DNA of 43,770 nt, taken from a virus. Of the stretch, positions 6,471 to 43,238 are shown piece after piece. The position numbers and the translations under genes are program-made. Under the pieces are notes generated by a model, which made no database searches, was not told the DNA's origin, and saw only the letters and a program-made list of their open reading frames with translations. The stretch spans positions 1 through 43,770 of IMG/VR virus record IMGVR_UViG_3300047388_000325; one strand, 5' to 3'. How positions within the stretch are numbered: the stretch's first letter is position 1; each line of letters opens with the position of its first letter.

Positions 6471-6781
6471 CTTTGGTCGAGATCGAGCCAGGACGTTTTC
6501 GCTTCCTGCGGCCGTCGCTGCCGCCGGCTCGCTCCGACCTGCCTTGCCCGCACATCATCTCCGACATCATGCCCGAGACCGAGCAGGTCGATGGCAAGTG
6601 GTACACCTCCAAGCGCGCGTTCCGCGCCGTCGGCCGTGCGCTGGGGCTGACCGAAGTGGGCGACCAAAAATTCAAGCCGAAACAGCGCGCCAGCGCCGAT
6701 CCGAACGTCAAAAAGGCGCGGCGCGAAGCACTGCAGCGGGCCCTTGCCCGCAGCGATGCTAAACCGACTAGGAGACGCTAA
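6467..6781 (+). CDS. Conserved-looking head-module protein, unknown function
   Basis: A 104-residue basic protein overlapping the upstream stop by ATGA. The centre reads CPHIISDIMPETEQVDGKWY then TSKRAFRAVGRALGLTEVG. I associate this pattern with short phage proteins encoded between portal and scaffold, but I cannot name a function. The C-terminal third is Lys/Arg-rich and disordered-looking. No zinc-finger pair is present; only one Cys is seen. Confidence 0.5.
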   Translation: MTLVEIEPGRFRFLRPSLPPARSDLPCPHIISDIMPETEQVDGKWYTSKRAFRAVGRALGLTEVGDQKFKPKQRASADPNVKKARREALQRALARSDAKPTRRR

Positions 6782-6782
6782 A

Positions 6783-8060
6783 ATGTCCGACACCAATGTC
6801 GCAACCGCCGCAGCGCCGGCTGCCGCGCCCTCCGAAGCGGTCATCGATCAGAGCCCAGTGGCGCGACCGAACCCAGTCGGGTCGCAGGCACCGCAGAAGC
6901 CAGTCGGTGACATCGAGGGCTCACCGCACCGCACCGAGAGCCGGCGCGACACGATCTCGCGGGCGTTCCAGCGCGCCAACGAGCGGGCAGGGATGGGCCA
7001 CAACAACCCCCCTGAGCCGATGGCGAAGGAGCGCACGCCGCCACCACGTACGCAGCGCGCCGAGCCAAAGACTGAGAAAACTGGAGCGCCTGCGGCGGAT
7101 GAGAAGTTCGATCTGAAAAAGCGGCCAGCGGACCAGCAGCCTCGCGACCAGGGCCGTTTTGCGCCCCGAGAGCGACCTCCTGGTGAGCGCGGGCAGCAAC
7201 AGCGGCAGCCAAGCGCGGCAGGCCAGACCCCGCCCGCACAACAATTGCCGAGCCATGCGCCCTACCATCAACCGCCTTCGCAGCGCGGATGGTCACAGGC
7301 AGCGCGCAACGACTGGGCCACGACACCCGAGAGCGTACGCGCCGACGTGCATCGCATGCACAAGGAGTTCATGGGCGCCCAGCAGTCGGCGCAGGCCGAC
7401 CGCCAGGAGATGGACACGCTGCGCCCTTATCAACAGCTCGCGAAGCAGGGCAACACCACGATCGCGAAAGCGCTCGAGAACTATCTCGGCATCGAGCGGA
7501 TGCTGACCGAAGATCCGATCGCGGGACTGAGCAAGATCGTCGATAATCTCAACCGGCAGACCAGCGATGGTCGGAGGCTCACGCTGCGCGACATCGCGCA
7601 CTACCTGGCCACACAATCACCCGAAGGTCACCAATTGTTGCAGGCACGCAACCAGCAGCAGGTGCAGCAGCACCAGATGGGGCAATTGTACCAGAGCGTC
7701 AATCAGCTTGCGCGCCAGCAGGAACAGCTGATATACGGGCTGCGCTACAACAACACGCGTGGAGCGGTCGACCGGTTCGCCGAGACCCACCCGCGGATTG
7801 ATGAGCTAGGCGACGACATCAAGCGAGAGTTGGGCTTCGGCTTCAAGTTGAACGAAGCCTACAGACGGGCCGCGTTGTTACGACCGGCCGCACAAGCGGA
7901 TCAGACCCGCACCACATCGGCTCAGACCCGAAGCGTTGACCGATCTATTTCTGGCGCACCCGCAGGTCCTACGAACGGATCTGGGCGACGCCCGAAAGCA
8001 TCGGCCTCAGTTCGTGAAGCTGTCGCGAACGCGCAGAAGCGCGTGAACGGCTCGATCTGA
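6783..8060 (+). CDS. Putative capsid scaffolding protein
   Basis: This 425-residue protein precedes the major capsid gene, the usual place for a scaffold. The first 190 residues are low-complexity (Pro, Gln, Arg, Ala) and the middle (about 195-345) is predicted helical and Gln-rich. The end has the short basic tail GRRPKASASVREAVANAQKR, similar to the capsid-binding tails of podovirus scaffolds. The start at 6783 lies just after the upstream stop. Confidence 0.7.
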   Translation: MSDTNVATAAAPAAAPSEAVIDQSPVARPNPVGSQAPQKPVGDIEGSPHRTESRRDTISRAFQRANERAGMGHNNPPEPMAKERTPPPRTQRAEPKTEKTGAPAADEKFDLKKRPADQQPRDQGRFAPRERPPGERGQQQRQPSAAGQTPPAQQLPSHAPYHQPPSQRGWSQAARNDWATTPESVRADVHRMHKEFMGAQQSAQADRQEMDTLRPYQQLAKQGNTTIAKALENYLGIERMLTEDPIAGLSKIVDNLNRQTSDGRRLTLRDIAHYLATQSPEGHQLLQARNQQQVQQHQMGQLYQSVNQLARQQEQLIYGLRYNNTRGAVDRFAETHPRIDELGDDIKRELGFGFKLNEAYRRAALLRPAAQADQTRTTSAQTRSVDRSISGAPAGPTNGSGRRPKASASVREAVANAQKRVNGSI

Positions 8061-22143: not shown

Positions 22144-22304
22144 CTACATTACCGATGTCGGAATTGCCATATGTTTTGTCTACATAACGGGTCGCCGCAC
22201 CCCCCTACCAGAAAACTTGCTACATAACGAGTAGATATTCACAAATATTTTGCGGCACAAAGCGTCTACAAAGTGGAGTTGACTATGGCTCCTACACATT
22301 GTAG
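22144..22304. promoter_or_regulatory. Immunity operator region
   Basis: The space between the divergent repressor and Cro-like genes contains CTACA half-sites at 22144, 22180, 22220 (CTACATAACGAGTAG) and 22266 (CTACAAAGTGGAG, one mismatch), plus the perfect palindrome CTACACATTGTAG at 22292-22304. They are spaced 26-46 bases apart in the same orientation. This is the densest group of such sites in the genome and the expected place for a repressor operator. Confidence 0.6.
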
Positions 22305-22942: not shown

Positions 22943-23025
22943 ATACGTTGCGTAGGCGGAACGGATTTCGACGAAAACTAAACCTAATTTTCAGGAGCTG
23001 GAACCGACCCTTCTACGTTGCGTAG
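22943..23025. promoter_or_regulatory. Pair of CGTTGCGTAG elements in a divergent intergenic region
   Basis: The 213-base gap between the minus-strand gene ending upstream at 22846 and gcrA at 23060 has ATACGTTGCGTAG at 22943-22955 and CTACGTTGCGTAG at 23013-23025. Both share the 10-mer CGTTGCGTAG; the second is a perfect palindrome around TTG. The geometry matches the CTACA-N3-TGTAG operators but with the inner base changed symmetrically. They may be operators for a second regulator. Confidence 0.4.
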
Positions 23026-23059
23026 CGGCCCCACGCGACCGCGCACCAAAGGACACCGC

Positions 23060-23530
23060 ATGGCGTGGCCACAAGAGTGGAACCAACAGTTACTCGCAAG
23101 CCTCACGGAGTTCGCCAGGCAGGGACTGACCGCCAGCGAGATCGCCGCGGAGACCGGCCGCACCCGCAACGCCGTCATCGGTAAAATCCATCGCCATAAG
23201 ATTCCTTGGAATTCCCAGGGGGGTCGGCTCGTCGCCAAGCGCAAGCGCAACCGCAAGCCATCCCCCAGCCGCGCATCACCCGCCGTTATGGACGCGCGCC
23301 TGCACGAGAAGATCGTGCGGCGGGAAGTGCCACCGCTACCGCCGCCGGCGCCGATCATCGAACCCCAGATCGGCACTGTGACGTTCGCCGACCTAGCGCC
23401 GCATCATTGCCGATGGCCATTCGGTGATCCAAGGACTCCGGAGTTCCGCTACTGCGGGCTGACCCAGATTGACGGCAAGCCCTATTGCCCCGCGCACGCC
23501 CGCGTGGCCTGGGAACGGTGGCGGCCATGA
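23060..23530 (+). CDS. gcrA: GcrA-like cell-cycle transcription factor
   Basis: A 156-residue protein. Residues 4-48 (WNQQLLASLTEFARQGLTASEIAAETGRTRNAVIGKIHR) match the N-terminal DNA-binding domain of GcrA. The C-terminal part has the expected cysteine-rich module CRWPFGDP ... FRYCG ... PYCPAHA (Cys117, Cys132, Cys143, His146). In alphaproteobacteria GcrA binds sigma70 and activates promoters carrying methylated GANTC. A phage copy could redirect host transcription. The gene is co-transcribed with the nuclease and replication genes (ATGA overlap). Confidence 0.85.
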   Translation: MAWPQEWNQQLLASLTEFARQGLTASEIAAETGRTRNAVIGKIHRHKIPWNSQGGRLVAKRKRNRKPSPSRASPAVMDARLHEKIVRREVPPLPPPAPIIEPQIGTVTFADLAPHHCRWPFGDPRTPEFRYCGLTQIDGKPYCPAHARVAWERWRP

Positions 23531-23946
23531 GACGCGAGCGGCCTGAGGACAAAATTCAGCGCGGCGTGATCGCCCACCTGCACGCGCGCGGTGTGCCCAA
23601 CATCTTCTTCTTCCACGTCCCCAACGGCGGCAAACGCTCAAAGATCGAAGCCGCGATCCTGCAGGGTCTCGGCGTGCGCGCCGGCGTCCCCGACCTGTTC
23701 ATCATCAAGGGCGCCCGCGTGTTCGCGATGGAGCTCAAGGCCCCTGGCCGTTTGCTCAGGTCCGCGCAGCGCGAGGCGTTGGCGGCGCTCGAGCGTGCCG
23801 GCGCAATCACTGCAGTCTGTGACAGCATCGATATGGCGGTCGCCGTGCTCGAGGATTGGGGCGTGCTCCGCGGTAAGGCCTCGCTGCGCACGATCGGCGA
23901 CCTCGCCACCCGCATGGACGAGCGCCGCAAAATTCAACAATCGTGA
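23527..23946 (+). CDS. VRR-NUC domain nuclease
   Basis: A 139-residue protein overlapping gcrA by ATGA. HVPNGGKRSKIEAAILQGLGV at residues 30-50, then GVPDLFII (Asp56), MELKAP (Glu69, Lys71) and SAQREAL (Gln81) match the VRR-NUC family of PD-(D/E)XK nucleases. These occur beside phage replication genes and may resolve branched DNA. The length is that of stand-alone phage forms. Confidence 0.85.
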   Translation: MRRERPEDKIQRGVIAHLHARGVPNIFFFHVPNGGKRSKIEAAILQGLGVRAGVPDLFIIKGARVFAMELKAPGRLLRSAQREALAALERAGAITAVCDSIDMAVAVLEDWGVLRGKASLRTIGDLATRMDERRKIQQS

Positions 23947-27485: not shown

Positions 27486-27838
27486 CGTTTGCGTCCCTTT
27501 CGTTTTGCGGACTTTGCGGATTTGATCTTGCTGCTGATTTTCTGGATTTTGAGGGCCGTGCGGACCGCGTAGACCATTGCGGACGCACTTTGCATAGGCG
27601 TCGCATCTGCGGATATGGGGTTTTGTGTCGGCACTTGGCCGGTGCCCTGACAGTGTCCGCACTGGTAGCGCTGCGCTGCCAATGGATCGTCGAGCGTGTA
27701 GGCCACCAACTCGCGGGCACCGTGGCAGCATGGGCACTCGTCGTAGCCTGGTGAGAACCCCTCCCGACGAGGTTGGACCATCCGGAGCGTCGGGAGGGGC
27801 CTCGACACGGGCGTGGGATCGTGCCGAGCGGATTTCAT
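27482..27838 (-). CDS. Protein with DnaJ-type zinc ribbon
   Basis: A 118-residue protein with CPCCHGARE near residues 35-43 and QCGHCQGTGQ near 59-68. Both are CxxC(x)G pairs as in the zinc domains of DnaJ-like proteins. The C-terminus is basic. ATGA overlaps on both sides place it firmly in the leftward operon. Role unknown. Confidence 0.55.
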   Translation of the reverse strand: MKSARHDPTPVSRPLPTLRMVQPRREGFSPGYDECPCCHGARELVAYTLDDPLAAQRYQCGHCQGTGQVPTQNPISADATPMQSASAMVYAVRTALKIQKISSKIKSAKSAKRKGRKR

Positions 27839-32631: not shown

Positions 32632-32672
32632 CGGCACGTCTGATTTCACCGCAACCCTGAAAGGCAAAGGCA

Positions 32673-32885: not shown

Positions 32886-32911
32886 ACCCGCAAACCTGAA
32901 AGGCAACCGCA

Positions 32912-33034
32912 ATGCGCAAAACGACCATAGGCTTCGCCGTCACCTATGAACGTAGGACGAAACGGGGCCCGCCCCGTCGCATGGTTAGGCCATGCCTGAT
33001 GATGTCCCGCAAACCTGAAAGGCCACGACAATGA
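32912..33034 (+). CDS. 40-residue basic peptide
   Basis: The gene starts 8 bases after CTGAAAGG (32896-32903), and its stop overlaps the next ATG. It is Arg/Lys/Pro-rich, and its last codons read through the next gene's CCCGCAAACCTGAAAGG element. The shared leader argues for translation; the composition is unusual, so confidence is moderate. Confidence 0.4.
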   Translation: MRKTTIGFAVTYERRTKRGPPRRMVRPCLMMSRKPERPRQ

Positions 33035-33267: not shown

Positions 33268-33303
33268 GGGCACGCCGCAAACGTGCCCATGACCCCTGAA
33301 AGG
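33268..33303 (+). promoter_or_regulatory. CCGCAAA-loop hairpin plus CTGAAAGG site
   Basis: GGGCACG (33268-33274), loop CCGCAAA (33275-33281), CGTGCCC (33282-33288): a perfect 7-bp stem. CTGAAAGG at 33296-33303 follows, 7 bases before the start at 33311. Confidence 0.6.
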
Positions 33304-33310
33304 CAAGACC

Positions 33311-33511
33311 ATGATCACGCCTACGACATACGACAAGCGGCAATGGGCCGTTCTGGCGAAGGAAGCGTTCCGCCGTCACTGCTACTCGATTGCACTGCTC
33401 TTCAGCGCGATGGCCAAACTGCCAGCTGGCACGTCAATTGACGTCCGCCGGTATGACGAGCTGCAAAACATTTATCGCCATTGGTTAGTATTTGGCGAAC
33501 TGGGAGGTTGA
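33311..33511 (+). CDS. Small hypothetical protein
   Basis: A 66-residue helical protein (DKRQWAVLAKEAFRRHCYSIALLFSAMAKL) behind the hairpin/CTGAAAGG leader. No family recognised. It is followed by a 120-base spacer with three hairpins. Confidence 0.5.
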   Translation: MITPTTYDKRQWAVLAKEAFRRHCYSIALLFSAMAKLPAGTSIDVRRYDELQNIYRHWLVFGELGG

Positions 33512-33514
33512 TGA

Positions 33515-33550
33515 CACTAAGGGCCATGCCATGCGCATGGCCTCATAGTG
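33515..33550 (+). repeat. Long hairpin in the 33.5-kb spacer
   Basis: GGCCATGC (33522-33529) pairs perfectly with GCATGGCC (33535-33542) around CATGC. Outside a small internal loop, CACTA (33515-33519) pairs with TAGTG (33546-33550). It directly follows a stop codon and could stabilise the 3' end of the upstream message. Confidence 0.4.
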
Positions 33551-33564
33551 GCACCATGCCGCTA

Positions 33565-33623
33565 GATGTTGCCGCAAACAGCATCGCACGCGCCGCCGCA
33601 AACGGCGCTTCAGCCCTGAAAGG
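33565..33623 (+). promoter_or_regulatory. Two consecutive CCGCAAA-loop hairpins plus CTGAAAGG site
   Basis: GATGTTG-CCGCAAA-CAGCATC (33565-33585, one G-T wobble) and GCGCCG-CCGCAAA-CGGCGC (33590-33608) lie in tandem. CTGAAAGG follows at 33616-33623, 8 bases before the Gp88-like gene. Confidence 0.6.
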
Positions 33624-33631
33624 TTATCCCT

Positions 33632-34423
33632 ATGTCAATCATCTATGATCTATCCAAGCTTGCGCCCGATACGCGCGAGTTGATCGAACGCAGCTCTAAA
33701 TTCCGCAAATGGTTCTCGCAAAAGCCTGACGCGATGCTGCGTCTGGATGGGAGCACAAAGGTAGTGAAGGGCAACAAGTATGGGTTCAAGACTGCCATTC
33801 TGTACCTTGCGCCAGCGTCAATATCCGGAAGCAACATCTGCCCTATGGCATTGCTGGCCAGCTGCGCGGACGCGTGCCTCAATACCGCAGGACGCGGTGC
33901 AATGACTGGCATCCAGATATCGCGACTGCGTAAGACACTCTTTTGGCTTCAGTTCCGCGATGAGGCTATTGCCATGATCAAAGCCGAAATCGCGATGTTC
34001 GAGGCGCGCGCGGTAAAGCAGGGTTGGACGTTGCTCGTTCGCTTGAACGGGACGTCCGACTTGCGCTGGGAAAACTATGGCATCGTGCAAGCTTTCCCGC
34101 GCGTTCAATTCTACGACTACACAAAGCTTGCCAACCGCAAAAACGTGCCCGCGAATTACGATCTCACGTTTAGCTATTCGGGGGTCGCTGCTTATCAGTC
34201 GCAAGTCGCGATTGCGCTGGCGAACGGCATGCGCATGGCCGTTGTGTACGGCAAGCGACGCACGGTTGAAACCATCCTCGCGAATGGCGATGGGTTCATG
34301 GGCCTCGATCTAGTCGACGGTGACGATACCGATATTCGCCACCTTGACCCCATGGGCGCGGCTGTCGCGCTGTATGCCAAAGGGCGCGCCAAGCAAGATC
34401 ACTCAGGCTTTGTTGTTCACTAG
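33632..34423 (+). CDS. Gp88-like phage protein
   Basis: A 263-residue protein. NKYGFKTAILYLAPASISGSNICPMALLASCADACLNTAGRG (about residues 48-90), then LLVRLNGTSDLRWENY, FYDYTKLANR and NYDLTFSYSG match the Gene product 88 (Gp88) family, found in many phages and plasmids. The cysteine cluster near residue 70-83 could bind metal. Biochemical role is not established. It is the largest gene in the cassette region and has two tandem hairpins in its leader. Confidence 0.7.
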   Translation: MSIIYDLSKLAPDTRELIERSSKFRKWFSQKPDAMLRLDGSTKVVKGNKYGFKTAILYLAPASISGSNICPMALLASCADACLNTAGRGAMTGIQISRLRKTLFWLQFRDEAIAMIKAEIAMFEARAVKQGWTLLVRLNGTSDLRWENYGIVQAFPRVQFYDYTKLANRKNVPANYDLTFSYSGVAAYQSQVAIALANGMRMAVVYGKRRTVETILANGDGFMGLDLVDGDDTDIRHLDPMGAAVALYAKGRAKQDHSGFVVH

Positions 34424-34429
34424 CAACGA

Positions 34430-34481
34430 TGCGGCACGCCGCAAACGTGCCGCACGTTTCATATCAACTCTACTCGAAAGG
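34430..34481 (+). promoter_or_regulatory. CCGCAAA-loop hairpin plus TCGAAAGG site
   Basis: TGCGGCACG (34430-34438), loop CCGCAAA (34439-34445), CGTGCCGCA (34446-34454): a perfect 9-bp stem. TCGAAAGG at 34474-34481 lies 7 bases before the GTG start at 34489. Confidence 0.6.
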
Positions 34482-34488
34482 GACACCA

Positions 34489-34677
34489 GTGACTGAAATC
34501 ATCCTGGCCGACATGGGCGAGTGGCTCGATTTCGTCCGCGAGAATATCGACGCCATCCGCGATGCATACGGCTCTGTCTCGAATGCCTACCAGCACGCGG
34601 TGCAAGGCGGATTGATGCTCGGGGGCGGCGCCGCGCCGTTGTTCGTCATCCGGTTTGCAGAGGAGAAGGCACCATGA
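34489..34677 (+). CDS. Small hypothetical protein with GTG start
   Basis: A 62-residue protein; the GTG is chosen because it lies 7 bases after TCGAAAGG. The N-terminal helix (EWLDFVRENIDAIRDAYG) is followed by a Gly-rich turn (GGLMLGGGAAPL). It overlaps the next gene by ATGA. Function unknown. Confidence 0.45.
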   Translation: MTEIILADMGEWLDFVRENIDAIRDAYGSVSNAYQHAVQGGLMLGGGAAPLFVIRFAEEKAP

Positions 34678-34841
34678 CCACGCGCCGTTGCGTCTACTCG
34701 CGCTTTGCCTCGCGCATGCTGGCGCGAATGGGTCTGGACTACATGCGAATGATGGGCGATTTCGACAACAGCGACCGCCCTCGCATCCAACGCATAGACG
34801 GCGTTTGGTGCGTCACAACGCTGCGTCTGTTTGCAAACTAG
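34674..34841 (+). CDS. Small basic protein
   Basis: A 55-residue basic protein in an ATGA overlap with the preceding gene; it ends just before a GGAGG site for the next gene. No family recognised. Confidence 0.45.
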   Translation: MTTRRCVYSRFASRMLARMGLDYMRMMGDFDNSDRPRIQRIDGVWCVTTLRLFAN

Positions 34842-34853
34842 GAGGACACCGCA

Positions 34854-35060
34854 ATGAACATCGACCGCACACTGGCCGCGCTCGCGCGCCAGATGAACTA
34901 CCTAGCCCAAGCCGCCATGGGCGACCTATCGAAAGATGAGGCCGAGCTATTCCACACGGCTTGCGACAACATCAATCAACTGATGGAACTGATCGACCGC
35001 CGCGAGAATGGGCCACCTGACCCGCCAGGATGGGAAGGCGGCTTTGCGGAAAATCACTGA
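34854..35060 (+). CDS. Small helical protein
   Basis: A 68-residue protein with a classical AGGAGG site. Mostly helical (LAALARQMNYLAQAAMGDLSKDEAELFHTACDNI) with a Pro-rich tail. Its stop overlaps the next start (TGATG). Function unknown. Confidence 0.45.
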   Translation: MNIDRTLAALARQMNYLAQAAMGDLSKDEAELFHTACDNINQLMELIDRRENGPPDPPGWEGGFAENH

Positions 35061-35164
35061 TGAATCGCAACCAAAGAGCCGAGTTCGCCGTACTGGCGCT
35101 GCTTTACTTGGGTGAGAGCGTGATCGTGCTCGGCATCGCGCTCGCGCTCTTGGCCTTGTGGTAG
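35060..35164 (+). CDS. 34-residue single-span membrane peptide
   Basis: It starts at ATG 35060, overlapping the upstream stop. Residues 9-34 (FAVLALLYLGESVIVLGIALALLALW) form one membrane helix. Translational coupling supports it. Function unknown. Confidence 0.4.
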   Translation: MNRNQRAEFAVLALLYLGESVIVLGIALALLALW

Positions 35165-35186
35165 CGGCCACGCTAAGTAATATAAT
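35156..35186 (+). promoter_or_regulatory. Possible promoter before the oxygenase gene
   Basis: TATAAT at 35181-35186 is a perfect -10; TTGTGG at 35156-35161 is a weak -35 at 19 bases. The gene begins 29 bases further on. Confidence 0.3.
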
Positions 35187-35215
35187 TCGACACTTCGTGA
35201 ACTCGAGGGCAAGCC

Positions 35216-35914
35216 GTGACGACAACGATTGACGCGCCTGACGCGCCAGCAGCGGAGCATAAGCGGATTGTCCGCATGCTGGCGCCAGGTGTTACCGTCA
35301 TTGACGGGCTACTCGACCAGCAGCAGCAGGCATCTGTGCAGAACTATCTGCGCCACAGCCGATGGACATTTGGCTGGAAGTCTTCGCCAAAAACCGACAC
35401 CTATGCATTCTGGCATATGCACTTCGCCGGCCACCGCAGTGGTGCGAACGACAAGCCCTACGAATGTGCCGGCGAGCTGGAAAAGACCTCGCCGGTTTTA
35501 TTCCGGTTCTGGCAATGGCTGCGGCGCATGGAATTCTACCACGGCCACGAGCTGCTGCGCTGCTACGCGAACGGGTCCTGCTTTGGCGGGGAGGGCACAA
35601 TTCACACTGATGCCAAGGCTGACGGGCACTTCACGGCGATTTACTACCCGCATCAAGCATGGGACCCGAATTGGGGCGGCGAAACTGTGATCTTTAATGA
35701 TGCCCGCGACGACATCATCGCGACCATCTATCCGCGCCCCAATCGGCTATTGGTTTTTCCTGGCAACATGCCCCATGTTGCGCGCGGCGTGAGCCGGACG
35801 TGTCCGGAACTGCGGATTACATTGATGTTCAAAACTCGGATCGCCAAACATGATCGAGTCGGAGCTGACACAGTTCCTGATCGTGCAAGCGAAGGCGGAC
35901 CAGACGCGCCATAG
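35216..35914 (+). CDS. 2-oxoglutarate/Fe(II)-dependent dioxygenase
   Basis: A 232-residue protein starting with GTG after GAGGG. The iron-binding facial triad is visible as HTD (His130, Asp132) and His187 in FPGNMPHVARG. Arg200 in PELRITLMF is a candidate 2-oxoglutarate anchor. Strands around GHFTAIYYPHQAW and GGETVIFND complete the double-stranded beta-helix. The family oxidises proteins, nucleic acids or small molecules; the substrate here is unknown. It overlaps the next gene by 65 bases. Confidence 0.8.
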   Translation: MTTTIDAPDAPAAEHKRIVRMLAPGVTVIDGLLDQQQQASVQNYLRHSRWTFGWKSSPKTDTYAFWHMHFAGHRSGANDKPYECAGELEKTSPVLFRFWQWLRRMEFYHGHELLRCYANGSCFGGEGTIHTDAKADGHFTAIYYPHQAWDPNWGGETVIFNDARDDIIATIYPRPNRLLVFPGNMPHVARGVSRTCPELRITLMFKTRIAKHDRVGADTVPDRASEGGPDAP

Positions 35915-36341
35915 CGGGCGTAGTTTGTTTGACCATCTCGTGGGCACGCATGACTTATTACAGGCATGGGGCAACAGCGAAGATGTTTGTAATGCTGGAC
36001 TATTCCACAGCATCTACGGCACGCGGCGGTTCCGGCATCAGTCCTGGCCGCTAACGGATCGCGCTACAATCCAGAAGCTGATCGGCCACCAAGCTGAATA
36101 TCCGGCATTTCTGTTCTGCACGACTGACCGGCCAAGATCTCTTTTCGAGGAAATAAAATCTCCAGCCGAGTGGCTTGTGGTGGCAGAGGACCAGCCAGTG
36201 CGGCGCATCCTGCGCGAGATCGAGGCGGCCAACCTGCTCGAGCAGGGCAGCAAGGGGCGGTGGCTTGCCAAGCTGCGCGCCAGCGATATCAGCGACGCGG
36301 CTAAGGCGGCGATCGACGCGCACGCGGCTGCCCTTCGTTGA
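35850..36341 (+). CDS. HD-like protein (DUF6817-type)
   Basis: A 163-residue protein. RHSGRSLFDHLVGTHDLLQAWGNSEDVCNAGLFHSIYGT has the His spacing of HD-superfamily metal proteins, with HS in place of the usual HD in FHSIYG, and resembles the family I know as DUF6817. Some HD proteins are di-iron oxygenases. The 65-base overlap with the 2OG oxygenase suggests a linked function. The C-terminal half is helical and charged. Confidence 0.55.
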   Translation: MIESELTQFLIVQAKADQTRHSGRSLFDHLVGTHDLLQAWGNSEDVCNAGLFHSIYGTRRFRHQSWPLTDRATIQKLIGHQAEYPAFLFCTTDRPRSLFEEIKSPAEWLVVAEDQPVRRILREIEAANLLEQGSKGRWLAKLRASDISDAAKAAIDAHAAALR

Positions 36342-36348
36342 AACGGTA

Positions 36349-36445
36349 GGGGCGCAGCCGACGCGGCGAAAATTCCGGCTGCGCCCCATGCGTCCCGTGC
36401 GAGGACGCTCCCTTTGTGCGGATGCTGTAGAGGGGGTCCCGCACA
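36349..36445 (+). other. Three consecutive hairpins after the HD-like gene
   Basis: GGGGCGCAGCCG/CGGCTGCGCCCC (36349-36387, perfect 12 bp, 15-base loop), GCGTCC/GGACGC (36390-36408) and TGTGCGG/CCGCACA (36415-36445) follow each other within 100 bases. None ends in a T-run. It could be a small RNA, an RNA-stability element or a rho-dependent pause region. Confidence 0.4.
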
Positions 36446-36471
36446 AACTGCGGTCCACATAATGCACCTTT

Positions 36472-36484
36472 CTACACAATGTGG
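36472..36484. promoter_or_regulatory. Operator-like site CTACA-CAA-TGTGG
   Basis: One mismatch from the CTACA-N3-TGTAG palindrome, in the spacer before the gene at 36538. Its promoter is not clear. Confidence 0.4.
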
Positions 36485-36495
36485 CAAGACCCAAC

Positions 36496-36529
36496 CGCGC
36501 CCGCCGCAAACGGGCGCGCAACCGAAAGG
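36496..36529 (+). promoter_or_regulatory. CCGCAAA-loop hairpin plus CCGAAAGG site
   Basis: CGCGCCCG (36496-36503), loop CCGCAAA (36504-36510), CGGGCGCG (36511-36518): a perfect 8-bp stem. CCGAAAGG at 36522-36529 is 8 bases before ATG 36538. Confidence 0.6.
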
Positions 36530-36537
36530 AATCGAGC

Positions 36538-36741
36538 ATGCGAATACCATCGTTGATTGCTATCGCCGCCATCGCGGCTGGCATCATAGGTCTCGTTCAC
36601 GGCATGGTTATGGGCCTCAACAGGCCGCCCACCGCCGTCGCAACGTCTGGCGAAAAAACCCCGCAGCAGCGCATTGACGAGGTCTTTGATGAGCTGGGCT
36701 TTCAGCGGTTGCCGTTGCCGCCAGGGGTGCCGCGGCGGTAA
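36538..36741 (+). CDS. Small protein with N-terminal membrane anchor
   Basis: A 67-residue protein whose residues 5-25 (SLIAIAAIAAGIIGLVHGMVM) form a signal anchor. The rest is polar with a Pro-rich end. The start is fixed by the CCGAAAGG site. Function unknown. Confidence 0.5.
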   Translation: MRIPSLIAIAAIAAGIIGLVHGMVMGLNRPPTAVATSGEKTPQQRIDEVFDELGFQRLPLPPGVPRR

Positions 36742-36781
36742 CATAGCGTAGACTGACACGCAAAACCGAAAGGACTGACTA

Positions 36782-37105
36782 ATGGCCGTAATCGAAGCGA
36801 CTGAGACAATTCTGCGCGAGATACAGCGTCAGCTAAAGGATGCGCTCGACGGCGCACAACGCGACCGCGAATTGGCGCACCGTGCCGTAACGCGGATTGA
36901 CCGCTTTGAGGCACGGTTTGACAGCATCGCCGCCGATATTCGGACCCAGATGGCTGGCGTTGCTGCCGACATGGCGAACATTCGCTCTGACATCGCGGCT
37001 ATCGATATCAAGCTGGCCGCGTTGCCGGTGATCGAGCAGGCAATTCGACAACTCGACGAAAGGATATCCCGTGACTTGGATGCCGGTGGCTTGGGTATCC
37101 CATGA
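36782..37105 (+). CDS. Coiled-coil protein
   Basis: A 107-residue protein, helical from end to end, with heptads at about 5-30 and 60-98 (IRSDIAAIDIKLAALPVIEQAIRQLDERI). CCGAAAGG at 36766-36773 is 8 bases upstream. It overlaps the next coiled-coil gene by ATGA; the two may form a complex with the membrane protein that follows. Confidence 0.5.
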   Translation: MAVIEATETILREIQRQLKDALDGAQRDRELAHRAVTRIDRFEARFDSIAADIRTQMAGVAADMANIRSDIAAIDIKLAALPVIEQAIRQLDERISRDLDAGGLGIP

Positions 37106-37329
37106 CTGAAATCACCCTGGAATTCATCGCCAAGCAGTTGGAGCGCGTGATCTCCGAGCAAGGCGCATTACGCGATGAGATGCTAGTGCTCGGCGCGCGC
37201 ATGACCAAGGTCGAGGCCGGCGTGGCCGTGATCGCGGCCGAGGTCCACGCGCTCGCAAACCAGCTTGCGCGCATCGGTCTCCGTGTCGAGATGTTGGAGG
37301 ACCGCATGGACAAGCTGGAGGAGGCTTAA
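37102..37329 (+). CDS. Coiled-coil protein
   Basis: A 75-residue helical protein with a long heptad pattern (VIAAEVHALANQLARIGLRVEMLEDRMDKLEEA). ATGA overlap upstream and no gap to the following membrane protein suggest coordinated synthesis. Similar in character to the coiled-coil gene at the contig join. Function unknown. Confidence 0.5.
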   Translation: MTEITLEFIAKQLERVISEQGALRDEMLVLGARMTKVEAGVAVIAAEVHALANQLARIGLRVEMLEDRMDKLEEA

Positions 37330-37476
37330 ATGAAAAAGCTGCTGGGCTGGCTGCTGATGATCATCCTGCTGATCGTGTGTTTGCCGTTCTACTACTGGAT
37401 GTGGCCGGCGGCGCTGGCGATTGCGATATTCTTCGCGTTCATGTTCGCCCTCCAACTTATCAAAGGCGAATTATAA
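37330..37476 (+). CDS. 48-residue two-helix membrane protein
   Basis: It starts directly after the previous TAA. Two hydrophobic helices, about residues 4-20 and 23-43, are separated by a WMWP turn; the ends are Lys-rich. A holin or membrane anchor for the preceding coiled-coil proteins is possible. No endolysin lies beside it. Confidence 0.45.
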   Translation: MKKLLGWLLMIILLIVCLPFYYWMWPAALAIAIFFAFMFALQLIKGEL

Positions 37477-37483
37477 AAAAGGT

Positions 37484-37542
37484 GGGGCGGCCCCCGCAAA
37501 GGACCGCCCCGCGTCAATGCCAGCGCATCTGAGCCCGAAAGG
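37484..37542 (+). promoter_or_regulatory. CCGCAAA-loop hairpin plus CCGAAAGG site
   Basis: GGGGCGGCCC (37484-37493), loop CCGCAAA (37494-37500), GGACCGCCCC (37501-37510), with one C/A mismatch in the stem. CCGAAAGG is at 37535-37542, 23 bases before ATG 37566. A closer GAGG (37555-37558) probably serves as ribosome site here. Confidence 0.55.
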
Positions 37543-37820: not shown

Positions 37821-37823
37821 AAA
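37795..37823 (+). promoter_or_regulatory. Promoter of the recombination operon
   Basis: TTGCCC (37795-37800), a 17-base spacer and TAGAAA (37818-37823). The -10 and spacer overlap the operator at 37808-37820, as at the Cro-like gene. The first gene starts at 37859 behind AGGAGA. Confidence 0.5.
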
Positions 37824-37858
37824 TATTCTCTTGGTCCCCTCACCAGGAGAATGTCCCT

Positions 37859-38173
37859 ATGACCTTGCTGGAGCAGCTGCAGGCCTCCGCCGAAAAAGTC
37901 ACCGCTGAAAAGCTGGAAGCCGTCGAGAGCGAACAATTCGAGTTCGCCTCTACCGACGGCGACGAGGGCACCGTCGTCAGCTTGGCGGCCGGCGTTGATG
38001 ACGACCTCGTTCCGATCGTCACACTGTGCCTTGAGCCTGGCATCGGCAAGCAGACTCGCTTTCTCGACATGCATCCAGCCGGCGCGCGCGCGCTGTGCGC
38101 TCGCATTCTCGCATTCACCGCAAAAATCGAGGAGATCACAAATGTTAAGCCCAACCCAACTGGCAGCCCGTGA
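37859..38173 (+). CDS. Small protein preceding the exonuclease
   Basis: A 104-residue acidic protein with an AGGAGA site. It has a helical N-terminus (LLEQLQASAEKVTAEKLEAV), a beta-rich middle and a C-terminal helix. It overlaps the exonuclease start by 32 bases. An accessory role in recombination is inferred from position only. Confidence 0.5.
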   Translation: MTLLEQLQASAEKVTAEKLEAVESEQFEFASTDGDEGTVVSLAAGVDDDLVPIVTLCLEPGIGKQTRFLDMHPAGARALCARILAFTAKIEEITNVKPNPTGSP

Positions 38174-38933
38174 GGGCCGCCTGACTGCCTCGCGCGTTTA
38201 CTGTCTGATGACTGGCGACGAGCAAGCTGTACTCAATCTATGGCGCGAGATGGTCGGCGATCCCGACTACGTGCCCGAAGACTTGTCCGGCGTGTGGGCG
38301 GTGCAACTCGGCTCCACCACCGAAGGACTGAACCTGGAGTGGTTCGAGCGCCGGTACGGCACGACGGTCACCCGCCGCGGCGAGGTGGTGGTCGGCGAAC
38401 ACGAGTGGATGGCGGCAACGCTCGACGGCTGGGACATCGTCAACAATTGCCCGATCGAGTGCAAGCACACCGGCGGCTTCGAAAAGTTCGAGGTGATCGT
38501 CAGTCGCTATCAACCGCAAATGCAGTGGCAGATGTTGGTCACCGGCGCGCGGGAGTGTGCGCTGTCGGTGATCATGGGCGCCAGCGAGCCCACGATCGAG
38601 TGGGTGCCGTTCGATGCCGGCTACGCCGCTGAGCTGATGCGGCGCGCGGTTGCGTTCATGCAGTGCGTGCGAGAGTTGACGCCACCTGTGCAAACATTTT
38701 CGGCGCCGGTCGCAGCGCCGGTGAAACCGGTCATGATCTACGACATGAGCGGCAACAACGTCTGGGGCTCGGAAGCCGCGGTCTGGCTCGAGCACCGCGT
38801 CAGCGCCAAGAAGGCGACGAGCGCCGAGAAAGAACTGAAAAGCCTGGTGCCGGCTGATGCCGCGCGCTGTCACGGAGCTGGCGTCACAATCAACCGCGAC
38901 CGTGCCGGTCGCTTGTCACTTCGGGAGGGTTGA
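38142..38933 (+). CDS. YqaJ-type viral recombinase/exonuclease
   Basis: A 263-residue lambda-exonuclease-fold protein that should resect double-strand ends for RecT. Visible motifs: REGRLTASRVYCLMTGD at 10-26, TEGLNLEWFERRYG near 59-72, MAATLDGW (Asp near 94), IECKH (Glu/Lys near 104-106) and the glutamine helix YQPQMQWQM near 122-130. ATG 38142 follows GAGGAG. It lies directly upstream of recT, the normal pairing. Confidence 0.85.
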   Translation: MLSPTQLAAREGRLTASRVYCLMTGDEQAVLNLWREMVGDPDYVPEDLSGVWAVQLGSTTEGLNLEWFERRYGTTVTRRGEVVVGEHEWMAATLDGWDIVNNCPIECKHTGGFEKFEVIVSRYQPQMQWQMLVTGARECALSVIMGASEPTIEWVPFDAGYAAELMRRAVAFMQCVRELTPPVQTFSAPVAAPVKPVMIYDMSGNNVWGSEAAVWLEHRVSAKKATSAEKELKSLVPADAARCHGAGVTINRDRAGRLSLREG

Positions 38934-38935
38934 AC

Positions 38936-40102
38936 ATGAGTGTTACCCACAATGTGCCTGCCCCCTACGTGCCGCCGGTACCGGTCGCGCAAGGTCTGGT
39001 GCCGGCCACGCTCGCGGAGGCGATGCAGCTCGCCAACATGATGGCCAGCTCCAAGCTGGTGCCGGCTGCGCTGCGCGACAGTCCAGCCGACTGCCTGATG
39101 GTGATCCAGCAGGCGGTGCGCTGGCAGATGGACCCGTTCGCGGTGGCGCAGGAATGCTCCGTCATCCAAGGCAAACTGATGTACGGCGGCAAGCTCGTCG
39201 CCGCTGTCGTCAACTCGCGCGGCGGGCTCGAGGAGCGGCTGAGCTTTGATTACGCAGGCACTGGCGAGACCCGCACGATCACGGTTAGCGGCAAGGTCCG
39301 CGGCGAGAAGGCGGCTCGCAGCGTATCGGTGATCCTGCGCGATGCCAGGACCAACGCCGCGGTCTGGAAGACCCAGCCAGACCAGCAGCTCATGTATCAC
39401 GGCTCGCGCGTGTGGGCGAGGAGGCATGTCCCCGAGCTGATGCTCGGCGTCTGGTCGCCGGAAGAGTTTCCGGCCGAGGCCGCCAACTCAAACCAGCCGG
39501 CGCCGGTGAGCGAGACCTCGCCGATTGCGCCGGTGACGATCGAGAAGCCACCGGAGCACGATCCGGTGACCGGCGAGGTGGGGCCGCGCGCCCTGCCGCT
39601 GCCGGCGGGCGACATGACCGAATGGCAGCGCACCATCGCCTGGGGCGCCAGCTTCATCGCAGCGCTCAATGGGGCGCAAACGCTGGTCGAACTGGACCGT
39701 TGGCTGCACGCCAACTATGGCGGGCTGGAGCGGGTCAAGAACAGTGCGCCCAAGGTCTACGACCGCATCCTGCCCAACATCGAGAACGCGCGCAAAAAGC
39801 TGATCCTCAAAGAGACCGCCGCTAAGCCGCCGAAGATGGCGGAGCCGGACGGCGACATCCCGCCGTTTCTGGACCGGCTCAAGCAACTCGTGACGCCACA
39901 AGACGAACCGGAGGCGTATCTGGAATACATCTCCGACATCCTTGGGGCATGCACGACGTCGGCGGATCTCATTGCGGTGTGGGAGGGCAAATTCCTCCCC
40001 ACCATGGGCGACATGTTCCCCCGTGACGCAGCCATTGCTGGTGACGTGTTCGATCGCACGCTCGAGGCACTGCGCAAGCAGGAGCTGGAGGCGGTGTCGT
40101 GA
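38936..40102 (+). CDS. recT: RecT-family single-strand annealing protein
   Basis: A 388-residue protein. LAEAMQLANMMASSKLVPAALRDSPADCLMVIQQAVRWQMDPFAVAQEC, then GKLMYGGKLVAAVVNSRGGLEERLSFDY and MYHGSRVWARRHVPELMLGVW, match the RecT core (residues 1-175). The rest is an extended, less conserved tail with helices, longer than in typical RecT (about 270-300). It pairs with the exonuclease for annealing-based recombination. ATG 38936 follows GGGAGG. Confidence 0.85.
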   Translation: MSVTHNVPAPYVPPVPVAQGLVPATLAEAMQLANMMASSKLVPAALRDSPADCLMVIQQAVRWQMDPFAVAQECSVIQGKLMYGGKLVAAVVNSRGGLEERLSFDYAGTGETRTITVSGKVRGEKAARSVSVILRDARTNAAVWKTQPDQQLMYHGSRVWARRHVPELMLGVWSPEEFPAEAANSNQPAPVSETSPIAPVTIEKPPEHDPVTGEVGPRALPLPAGDMTEWQRTIAWGASFIAALNGAQTLVELDRWLHANYGGLERVKNSAPKVYDRILPNIENARKKLILKETAAKPPKMAEPDGDIPPFLDRLKQLVTPQDEPEAYLEYISDILGACTTSADLIAVWEGKFLPTMGDMFPRDAAIAGDVFDRTLEALRKQELEAVS

Positions 40103-42047: not shown

Positions 42048-42327
42048 TACCATCGTAAAATTAGCGCAACGTGGCGTTCTTCCTGGCGCCGCGCGGCTCG
42101 GCGGGCGCTGGTCGTTCAACCTCGAAAAGCTGCGCGCCTACGTGCGGCAACAGGAGCGGGAGATATGGCAAAAAAGGCACCGGCCGGCTGTTACTGGCGT
42201 GACAACACTCTCTGGGCGCAGGTCATGGTCAAAGGCCAGCGTATCCAGTGGTCCCTTAACACAGACAATCCAAGACTTGCGCGCCAGCGTCGCGAAGCCG
42301 GCAAAGAACGCGCGCTCGCCGAGCTGA
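41986..42327 (+). CDS. xis: Excisionase-like HTH protein
   Basis: A 113-residue protein with AGGAG six bases before ATG. KKAVEILGLPVSTIVKLAQRGVLPGAARLGGRWSFNLEKLRAYVRQ is a MerR/AlpA-type winged helix as in excisionases. The last 54 residues lie in a different frame of the integrase gene (163-base overlap) and are probably unstructured. It should direct excision at attP/attL/attR. Confidence 0.65.
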   Translation: MSEPERGPTKKAVEILGLPVSTIVKLAQRGVLPGAARLGGRWSFNLEKLRAYVRQQEREIWQKRHRPAVTGVTTLSGRRSWSKASVSSGPLTQTIQDLRASVAKPAKNARSPS

Positions 42328-43238
42328 TCCATGGTGACGCCGTGCACACGCTCGACGAGTTGATCAAAGCCTGGGGAGCACATTTCAAGGCGCAGAGTTC
42401 AGAGACGACATTCACGCGCTACATGGTATCGCTCGGCCAGCTCGCGCCGTTCCTGGAAGGGCGCAGCCTTCTCGATATCAACGCGCGGCTGATCGGCGAC
42501 ATTGTTGCCGAGCGGCAGAAGGTGGTGACCAACGCCACCATCCGGCGCGATCTCGGCGCGCTGTCGTCGGTCCTCAATTACGCTGTCGAGCGCGGCTGGT
42601 GCCCTGGCAATCCGATACTGCCGCGCCTGCGTGGCCTCAAGGAACGCCGCGACCCGATCGTGCTGCCGAGCGACAAGGACATCGAGCTGGTGATCTCGCG
42701 CGGCCTGGAGTGCGATCGCCGCCCCGGTGCGACGGCCGTCTCGATGTGGCCCCAACTCATTCGCGCCGCCTGGGTGACCGGTGCGCGGCAGGCCGAGCTG
42801 GTCACGGCCAAGCTCTCCCAGCTCGATCACCGGCGCCAGGAGCTGACCCTGGTCGGCAAGGGCAACAAGATGCGCGTGATCGACCTGCGGCCGTTCGACG
42901 GCTATCAACAGGCGTTCGCCAACCTGCCGAGCTACGTCGGGTGCGACCTCCTGTTCTGGCACGACCGGGGCGAGCCCTACCGCAATGCCTCGTCCAATTT
43001 CGCCAACAACCTGGTGGGCAGCACCCTCAAGTTCGCACGCCTTGCCGGCGTGACGTTCACCCCCTTCCGCTTCCACGATCTGCGGCACAAGCACGCCGTC
43101 GACTGGCTGCAGTCGGGCCGCGACCTCTACGACCTGCAGAAGCGGCTCGGCCACTCCACCATCGCGGTAACCGAGGGCTACCTGAAATACGTCACCACCG
43201 CGGTCGAGCGCGCCGCCAAGTACGGGAGGGGCAAATGA
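42165..43238 (+). CDS. int: Tyrosine-family integrase
   Basis: A 357-residue recombinase. An N-terminal arm-binding domain is followed by a SAM-like core-binding domain (about 60-150) and a catalytic domain with Arg208 (TGARQAEL), Lys232 or Lys235 (GKGNK), His304 and Arg307 (FHDLRHKHA), His330 (RLGHSTI) and nucleophile Tyr339 (EGYLKY). All key residues are present. It starts after GGAGCGGGAG and lies directly beside attP, so it should catalyse integration into a tRNA-Ser gene. Confidence 0.9.
   Translation: MAKKAPAGCYWRDNTLWAQVMVKGQRIQWSLNTDNPRLARQRREAGKERALAELIHGDAVHTLDELIKAWGAHFKAQSSETTFTRYMVSLGQLAPFLEGRSLLDINARLIGDIVAERQKVVTNATIRRDLGALSSVLNYAVERGWCPGNPILPRLRGLKERRDPIVLPSDKDIELVISRGLECDRRPGATAVSMWPQLIRAAWVTGARQAELVTAKLSQLDHRRQELTLVGKGNKMRVIDLRPFDGYQQAFANLPSYVGCDLLFWHDRGEPYRNASSNFANNLVGSTLKFARLAGVTFTPFRFHDLRHKHAVDWLQSGRDLYDLQKRLGHSTIAVTEGYLKYVTTAVERAAKYGRGK

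Follow-up and report, generated by a model that had tools for sequence, protein, structure and literature searches.

The window analysed here is the whole of IMG/VR virus record IMGVR_UViG_3300047388_000325 (43,770 bp, GC content 62%), and it harbours a family of short RNA hairpins with a common CCGCAAA loop, set in the leaders of small rightward accessory genes. Its gene content is that of a temperate tailed phage: the left half carries the terminase, portal, head and tail genes, RecE/RecT-like genes occupy 37995-40102, and an integrase is encoded at 42165-43238. It also encodes a GcrA-family cell-cycle regulator (23018-23530; Pfam PF07750, 7e-29), a family that we take as a pointer to an alphaproteobacterial host. 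This protein suggests nothing narrower, and the label rhizobial in the original prediction is unproven; a portal search of genome contigs for a host genome found no relative. Two other uncultured IMG/VR phages, G001 and G002, form a trio with the window. They are mostly 80-95% identical to it over shared blocks, with ~88% being typical, and the three genomes are mosaic but otherwise collinear. Relatives were gathered with portal, GP88, RecT and accessory genes; 26 of them, found through portal or GP88 genes, make up the distant comparison set, and two further close relatives (G003 and G042) are fragments that lack the hairpin region.

Six hairpins, here called H1 to H6 (Table 1), had been described as fully base-paired with the same seven-base loop. 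This holds for H1-H5, which have perfect stems of 6-9 bp and a G-C closing pair in all five. H6 is imperfect, with a C.A mismatch and a C-G closing pair, and RNAfold gives it an 8-nt loop. On the minus strand the same sequence forms a 12-pair terminator-like hairpin followed by a T-rich tail, ACCTTTTTTA, and it is identical across all three phages and so provides no covariation information; it probably reads better as an opposite-strand terminator, and we regard it only as a probable member of the family. Placement of every hairpin before a gene start, also claimed originally, stands for H1, H3, H4 and H5, whose 3' ends lie 19-34 nt from the start codon, and for H2, which is in tandem with H3, but H6 is 55 nt away. 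H1, H4 and H6 begin 6-10 nt past a stop codon. G001 and G002 carry H1, H2, H3, H5 and H6 at matching places, G001 also carries H4, and the loop is CCGCAAA in every copy. The stems are less constant: H4 has one C-G to U.G change in G001 and is missing together with its gene in G002, and H5 has lost its outer pairs in both relatives while keeping the five loop-proximal base pairs. Kissing between loops was considered and rejected, since CCGCAAA is self-complementary in GC only and no coding-orientation hairpin with a TTTGCGG loop was seen beyond the reverse complements. The loop also recalls the anticodon loop of tRNA-Cys, with seven nucleotides and GCA followed by A-A, which we take to be a mere resemblance.

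The number of these sites and the pairing around them are both far from chance. CCGCAAA occurs 30 times on the two strands of the window (9.5 +/- 3.1 in shuffles) and is the commonest 7-nt loop there. Of the 30 sites, five lie between arms that pair over at least 6 bp, whereas the background rate per position is 0.4% (P = 1.3e-7), and any other 7-nt loop with such stems, the reverse complement apart, has at most two copies in any genome of the trio. Over 12 distinct hairpins from the three phages, the covariation score is 0.707, compared with 0.219 +/- 0.046 after shuffling and no more than 0.18 with a slid pairing register. Relatedness of the genomes exaggerates the contrast with the shuffles, but is present to the same extent in the slid controls. 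Most of the covariation signal lies between different hairpins. Orthologues of a single hairpin also compensate, as in H2, where the arms are gatgttg/cagcatc, gatgctg/cagcatc and gacgttg/caacgtc around the same loop. Read on the transcript strand, the non-Watson-Crick pairs of H2, H4 and H5 are G.U wobbles, where the opposite strand would give A.C mismatches, which favours pairing in RNA rather than in DNA. The proposal that a fixed loop on variable stems marks a conserved RNA structure in the leaders of rightward genes is thus upheld by the covariation and by the strand of the wobbles.

The hairpin is not the whole signal, because the same word also stands unpaired beside the Shine-Dalgarno (SD) motif at a fixed spacing. 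The original prediction had missed that, in neighbouring genes without a hairpin, CCGCAA(A) begins at exactly -24 relative to the start codon, ahead of an SD GAAAGG at -14. This geometry is found in all four plain (hairpin-less) rightward leaders of the window. When every GAAAGG before an open reading frame (ORF) was listed, most such accessory genes had an upstream CCGCAA(A), with or without a hairpin. The three genomes of the trio have 10, 9 and 8 YGAAAGG leaders, and 9, 6 and 6 of these have CGCAA within 45 nt, where 0.7-0.8 would be expected per genome; among the 26 distant relatives, the number of YGAAAGG leaders ranges from 0 to 3, and the box accompanies none of them. Eight of the nine rightward leaders examined have the SD at -13/-14. 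These include the leaders of H1, H3, H4 and H5, in which the box is at -36, -36, -50 and -34, respectively; H6 deviates, with its SD at -29 and its box at -72. The box is predicted to be unpaired at 0.79, compared with 0.50 for random CGCAA sites; the value is slightly flattered, since for leaders with two boxes the better one was scored. From these positions and predictions, the hairpin appears to be one way of presenting a CCGCAAA box that is elsewhere single-stranded beside the SD. Upstream of the plain leader at 33007 there are two tandem hairpins with other loops (32962-32995, + strand; acgggg[CCCG]ccccgt and gcatggt[TAG]gccatgc), and both stems compensate in G002. A hammerhead-like CTGATGA..GAAA near 32996 was set aside, as it lacks both a stem II and an Rfam match.

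Table 1. Hairpins and plain leaders of the window, in window coordinates; brackets enclose the loop, and box and SD offsets are relative to the start codon
Feature	Position	Strand	Stem or leader	SD	Start codon	Remarks
H1	33268-33288	+	7 bp, gggcacg[CCGCAAA]cgtgccc	GAAAGG 33298-33303	ATG 33311	loop 33275-33281; same hairpin in G001 and G002
H2	33565-33585	+	7 bp with one U.G, gatgttg[CCGCAAA]cagcatc			in tandem with H3; compensatory stem changes in G001 and G002
H3	33590-33608	+	6 bp, gcgccg[CCGCAAA]cggcgc	33618-33623	ATG 33632	GP88-family gene
H4	34430-34454	+	9 bp, tgcggcacg[CCGCAAA]cgtgccgca	34476-34481	GTG 34489	
H5	36496-36518	+	8 bp, cgcgcccg[CCGCAAA]cgggcgcg	36524-36529	ATG 36538	
H6	37484-37510	+	imperfect: 7 bp, C.A mismatch, 2 C-G pairs			CCGCAAA 37494-37500; C-G closing pair; probable member only
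Plain leader	32649-32664	+	CCGCAACCCTGAAAGG	-14	ATG 32673	box -24
Plain leader	32888-32903	+	CCGCAAACCTGAAAGG	-14	ATG 32912	box -24
Plain leader	33007-33022	+	CCGCAAACCTGAAAGG	-14	ATG 33031	box -24
Plain leader	36758-36773	+	ACGCAAAACCGAAAGG	-14	ATG 36782	box -24; CCGCAAA in G001 and G002
Plain leader, leftward gene	27496-27519	-	CCGCAAAGTCCGCAAAACGAAAGG		ATG 27485	motif in the gene's own orientation

The hairpin family looks restricted to one phage lineage. A covariance model, the check originally suggested, recovers five of the six window hairpins together with the equivalently placed copies of G001 and G002; H2 is missing from the results, probably owing to a one-base overlap between its 25-base match and that of H3, so that a single one of the two was retained. 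In the ~1.27 Mb outside the trio (of 1.36 Mb searched) the model found no significant copy, with a best E of 0.6, and there is no CCGCAAA hairpin in the 26 distant relatives. Among the relatives found by portal, GP88, RecT and accessory genes, the hairpins are present only in G001 and G002. Scans of wider collections detect close or exact matches only, which leaves room for members elsewhere: exact CCGCAAACCTGAAAGG has 24 matches in viral contigs, with CCGCAAA hairpins only in G002 (contig L017), and CCGCAAACCTGAAAGGC has 49 matches in genome contigs, with a CCGCAAA hairpin in none. Matches to GCCGCAAAC-gap-CYGAAAGG in viral contigs were rejected as candidates, as few among the matches listed have stems and these are chance-like; the best stem-bearing match listed, L239, sits at the end of a coding gene.

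The presence of the same word next to the ribosome-binding site of neighbouring genes without hairpins makes it probable that CCGCAAA is a shared translation-control signal. The reading that we favour, tentatively and at somewhat less than an even chance, is that these sequences are a lineage-specific, two-part translation-initiation leader of accessory genes, in which CCGCAAA is read by a trans-acting factor that brings the genes under joint translational control. The uniform SD YGAAAGG, starting at -13/-14, would be one part, preceded by the CCGCAA(A) box as the other. The box would be left unpaired in plain leaders, where it abuts the SD motif at -24; in hairpin leaders it lies at about -36 or further and would be kept single-stranded as a loop, on a stem whose sequence is free so long as pairing is kept. 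The factor, most likely a phage or host RNA-binding protein, would recognise CCGCAAA in the leader RNA and could thereby set the translation of the whole gene set together. On a plain leader it would be positioned next to the SD, and on a hairpin leader immediately 5' of the 30S footprint. The data show the hairpins with their covariation and invariant loop, their position with respect to SD and start codon, their orientation on the transcript strand and their confinement to one lineage. We infer that the box is bound by a factor, that this factor is a protein and that translation is the regulated level.

Several points weigh against a two-part leader of this kind. There are just three related genomes and hence few independent events, and the motif definitions were made after inspection, although they were checked against the 26 relatives. 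The distance from hairpin to start is variable for H4 and H6, H6 may be a terminator, and the box is variable or lost in some plain leaders, as in the G001 orthologue of the leader of the gene at 33031. No candidate binder was recognised by Pfam or PHROGs. A more doubtful proposal is a phage-wide post-transcriptional regulon, in which an RNA-binding factor, a small molecule or an RNA ligand reads CCGCAAA by the SD or in the loop and switches the accessory genes of the temperate phage together. Were this so, the leaders would represent a new class of RNA operator, with a fixed leader that stays while the genes behind it are exchanged. The two parts are cleanly separable in this phage, with the invariant word free beside the SD in some leaders and held in the loop of a covarying hairpin in others, so what reads the word becomes directly testable with short synthetic leaders. 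The arrangement also suggests how a temperate phage could subject exchangeable small genes to a single control.

The genes behind the leaders do change among the three phages. ORF 33311 is absent directly behind H1 in G001; in G002 another ORF takes the place of the GP88 gene, from the start codon onwards, behind the same H2-H3-SD sequence; similarity between the window and G001 ends at the SD following H4; and homology resumes just before H6 in all three genomes. A constant leader with a swapped gene fits a common control signal, but also fits a set of DNA exchange sockets, that is, short shared leaders at which the adjoining RecE/RecT-like genes would promote the swapping of gene cassettes. 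The positions of the joints do not decide between the two, because gene borders are where joints would be expected in any case. We consider sockets unlikely: the stems differ among copies, which leaves only short shared homology, and the transcript-strand G.U pairs and fixed SD geometry indicate RNA. The same RNA pairing would suit a role in mRNA processing or stability, with the hairpins capping the 5' ends or protecting the 3' ends of processed cassette mRNAs and CCGCAAA acting as a nuclease or protector site, and the hairpins are indeed intergenic, three of them (H1, H4 and H6) shortly after a stop codon. This is a rather unlikely explanation, as it accounts neither for an invariant 7-nt loop nor for the unpaired word that plain leaders place at constant spacing ahead of the SD.

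The predicted openness of the box close upstream of the SD could also mean that it needs no dedicated factor and that unpaired CGCAAA, sometimes opened by a hairpin, is an enhancer or standby site that aids 30S loading, for example via S1. A generic open stretch has no need of seven invariant loop bases while the stems vary freely, and we think this improbable. Repeated fixed-loop RNA hairpins in the non-structural region of a phage also bring to mind nut/boxB-like antitermination, as was originally proposed, or intrinsic termination, for which H6 is terminator-like on the minus strand. Both are very improbable here. No boxA-like site was found near the hairpins in the window, so that they lack what defines a lambda-type nut site, and many copies are crowded inside one cassette region. 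H1-H3 and H5 have no U-tract, H4 has a weak one of just TTT (CGTTTCATAT), and H6 qualifies on the minus strand only; terminator-like sites in the region number 6, compared with 7.4 in shuffles. Sigma-70 promoters showed no enrichment.

The closest known analogue of the two-part leader is the SAS/ESAS kind, which it resembles in the way it works without being a member. SAS is an SD-containing repeat at the starts of non-structural genes in cluster K mycobacteriophages, its function not known (PMC3203893; PMC12699233), and ESAS is an additional inverted repeat that precedes roughly half the SAS copies, associated with different genes (PMC3203893). Repeated leaders of this type at phage accessory genes have thus been known since 2011 without a function. 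As in SAS, the YGAAAGG leaders of the trio put an SD core right before the starts of many non-structural genes, but the SAS consensus is GGGATAGGAGCCC whereas the word in the trio is CCGCAA(A)..CYGAAAGG. The ESAS comparison is reversed: its 17-bp arms are conserved and its spacer is variable, and its authors find little support for mRNA hairpins (PMC3203893), whereas the arms in the trio vary with compensation around a fixed loop. A looser analogue is the TAACTGA heptamer repeat of Beggiatoaceae, which is intergenic, lies just upstream of start codons and was proposed as the site of a post-transcriptional regulator (PMC4679880). Those heptamers are directly repeated in tandem, have little predicted structure and seldom accompany a canonical SD; the trio has single copies in loops or beside an SD.

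The H2-H3 pair resembles the guanidine-II (mini-ykkC) riboswitch, which has two small same-loop hairpins before a gene (for example PMC5486947). The guanidine-II loop is ACGR rather than CCGCAAA, and the trio also has single hairpins. Rfam, mini-ykkC/guanidine-II included, has no match in the window at gathering thresholds, and between 32300 and 38000 its two weaker matches (E 2.1 and 2.7) are unrelated and away from the hairpins. Phages also use protein-bound hairpins as translational operators, MS2-type coat operators among them. Others are found in T4-type phages (reviewed in PMC3014915). As in these operators, the phage leaders of the trio contain small hairpins whose loop is recognisable; the operators have few sites and a known protein, whereas the hairpins described here number five or six, are spread across several genes and lack a known binder. 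A literature search for CCGCAAA found no report of it.

Other elements were observed in the window and its relatives. Before the ATG at 37859, a 13-bp hairpin at 37823-37854, atattctcttggt[CCCCTC]accaggagaatgt, holds an SD AGGAG in its 3' arm and is kept in G001 and G002; it may act as a switch that masks the SD in front of the RecE/RecT genes. Five 13-bp palindromes, CTACAnnnTGTAG, at 22292, 25653, 31290, 37782 and 37808, with counterparts at three or four corresponding positions in G001 and G002, are likely repressor operators. Several distant relatives (L030, L033-L036) have in common a palindromic stretch around GTCCCGATCGGGATA, some 80-90 nt before the GP88 gene, which is a possible operator, and the twelve GTTTAAAC palindromes across the whole 19 kb of L147 (G041; 24 counted on both strands, 0.8 expected) are possibly stoperator-like operator sites. 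A 15-bp repeat, GGTAATCCGCCGACT, occurs in seven copies in two relatives (L141/L142, G006, 23454-23554; L163, G026), and since its period equals five codons it may be a coding repeat. Finally, L156 (G020, IMGVR_UViG_3300037119_002078) has at ~6540-7640 an array of ~1 kb in which the constant 10-mers GAGCGAGCCA and GAGAGCACCA alternate with 8-nt variable spacers at a 36-nt period; with stops in all six frames, it is apparently non-coding.

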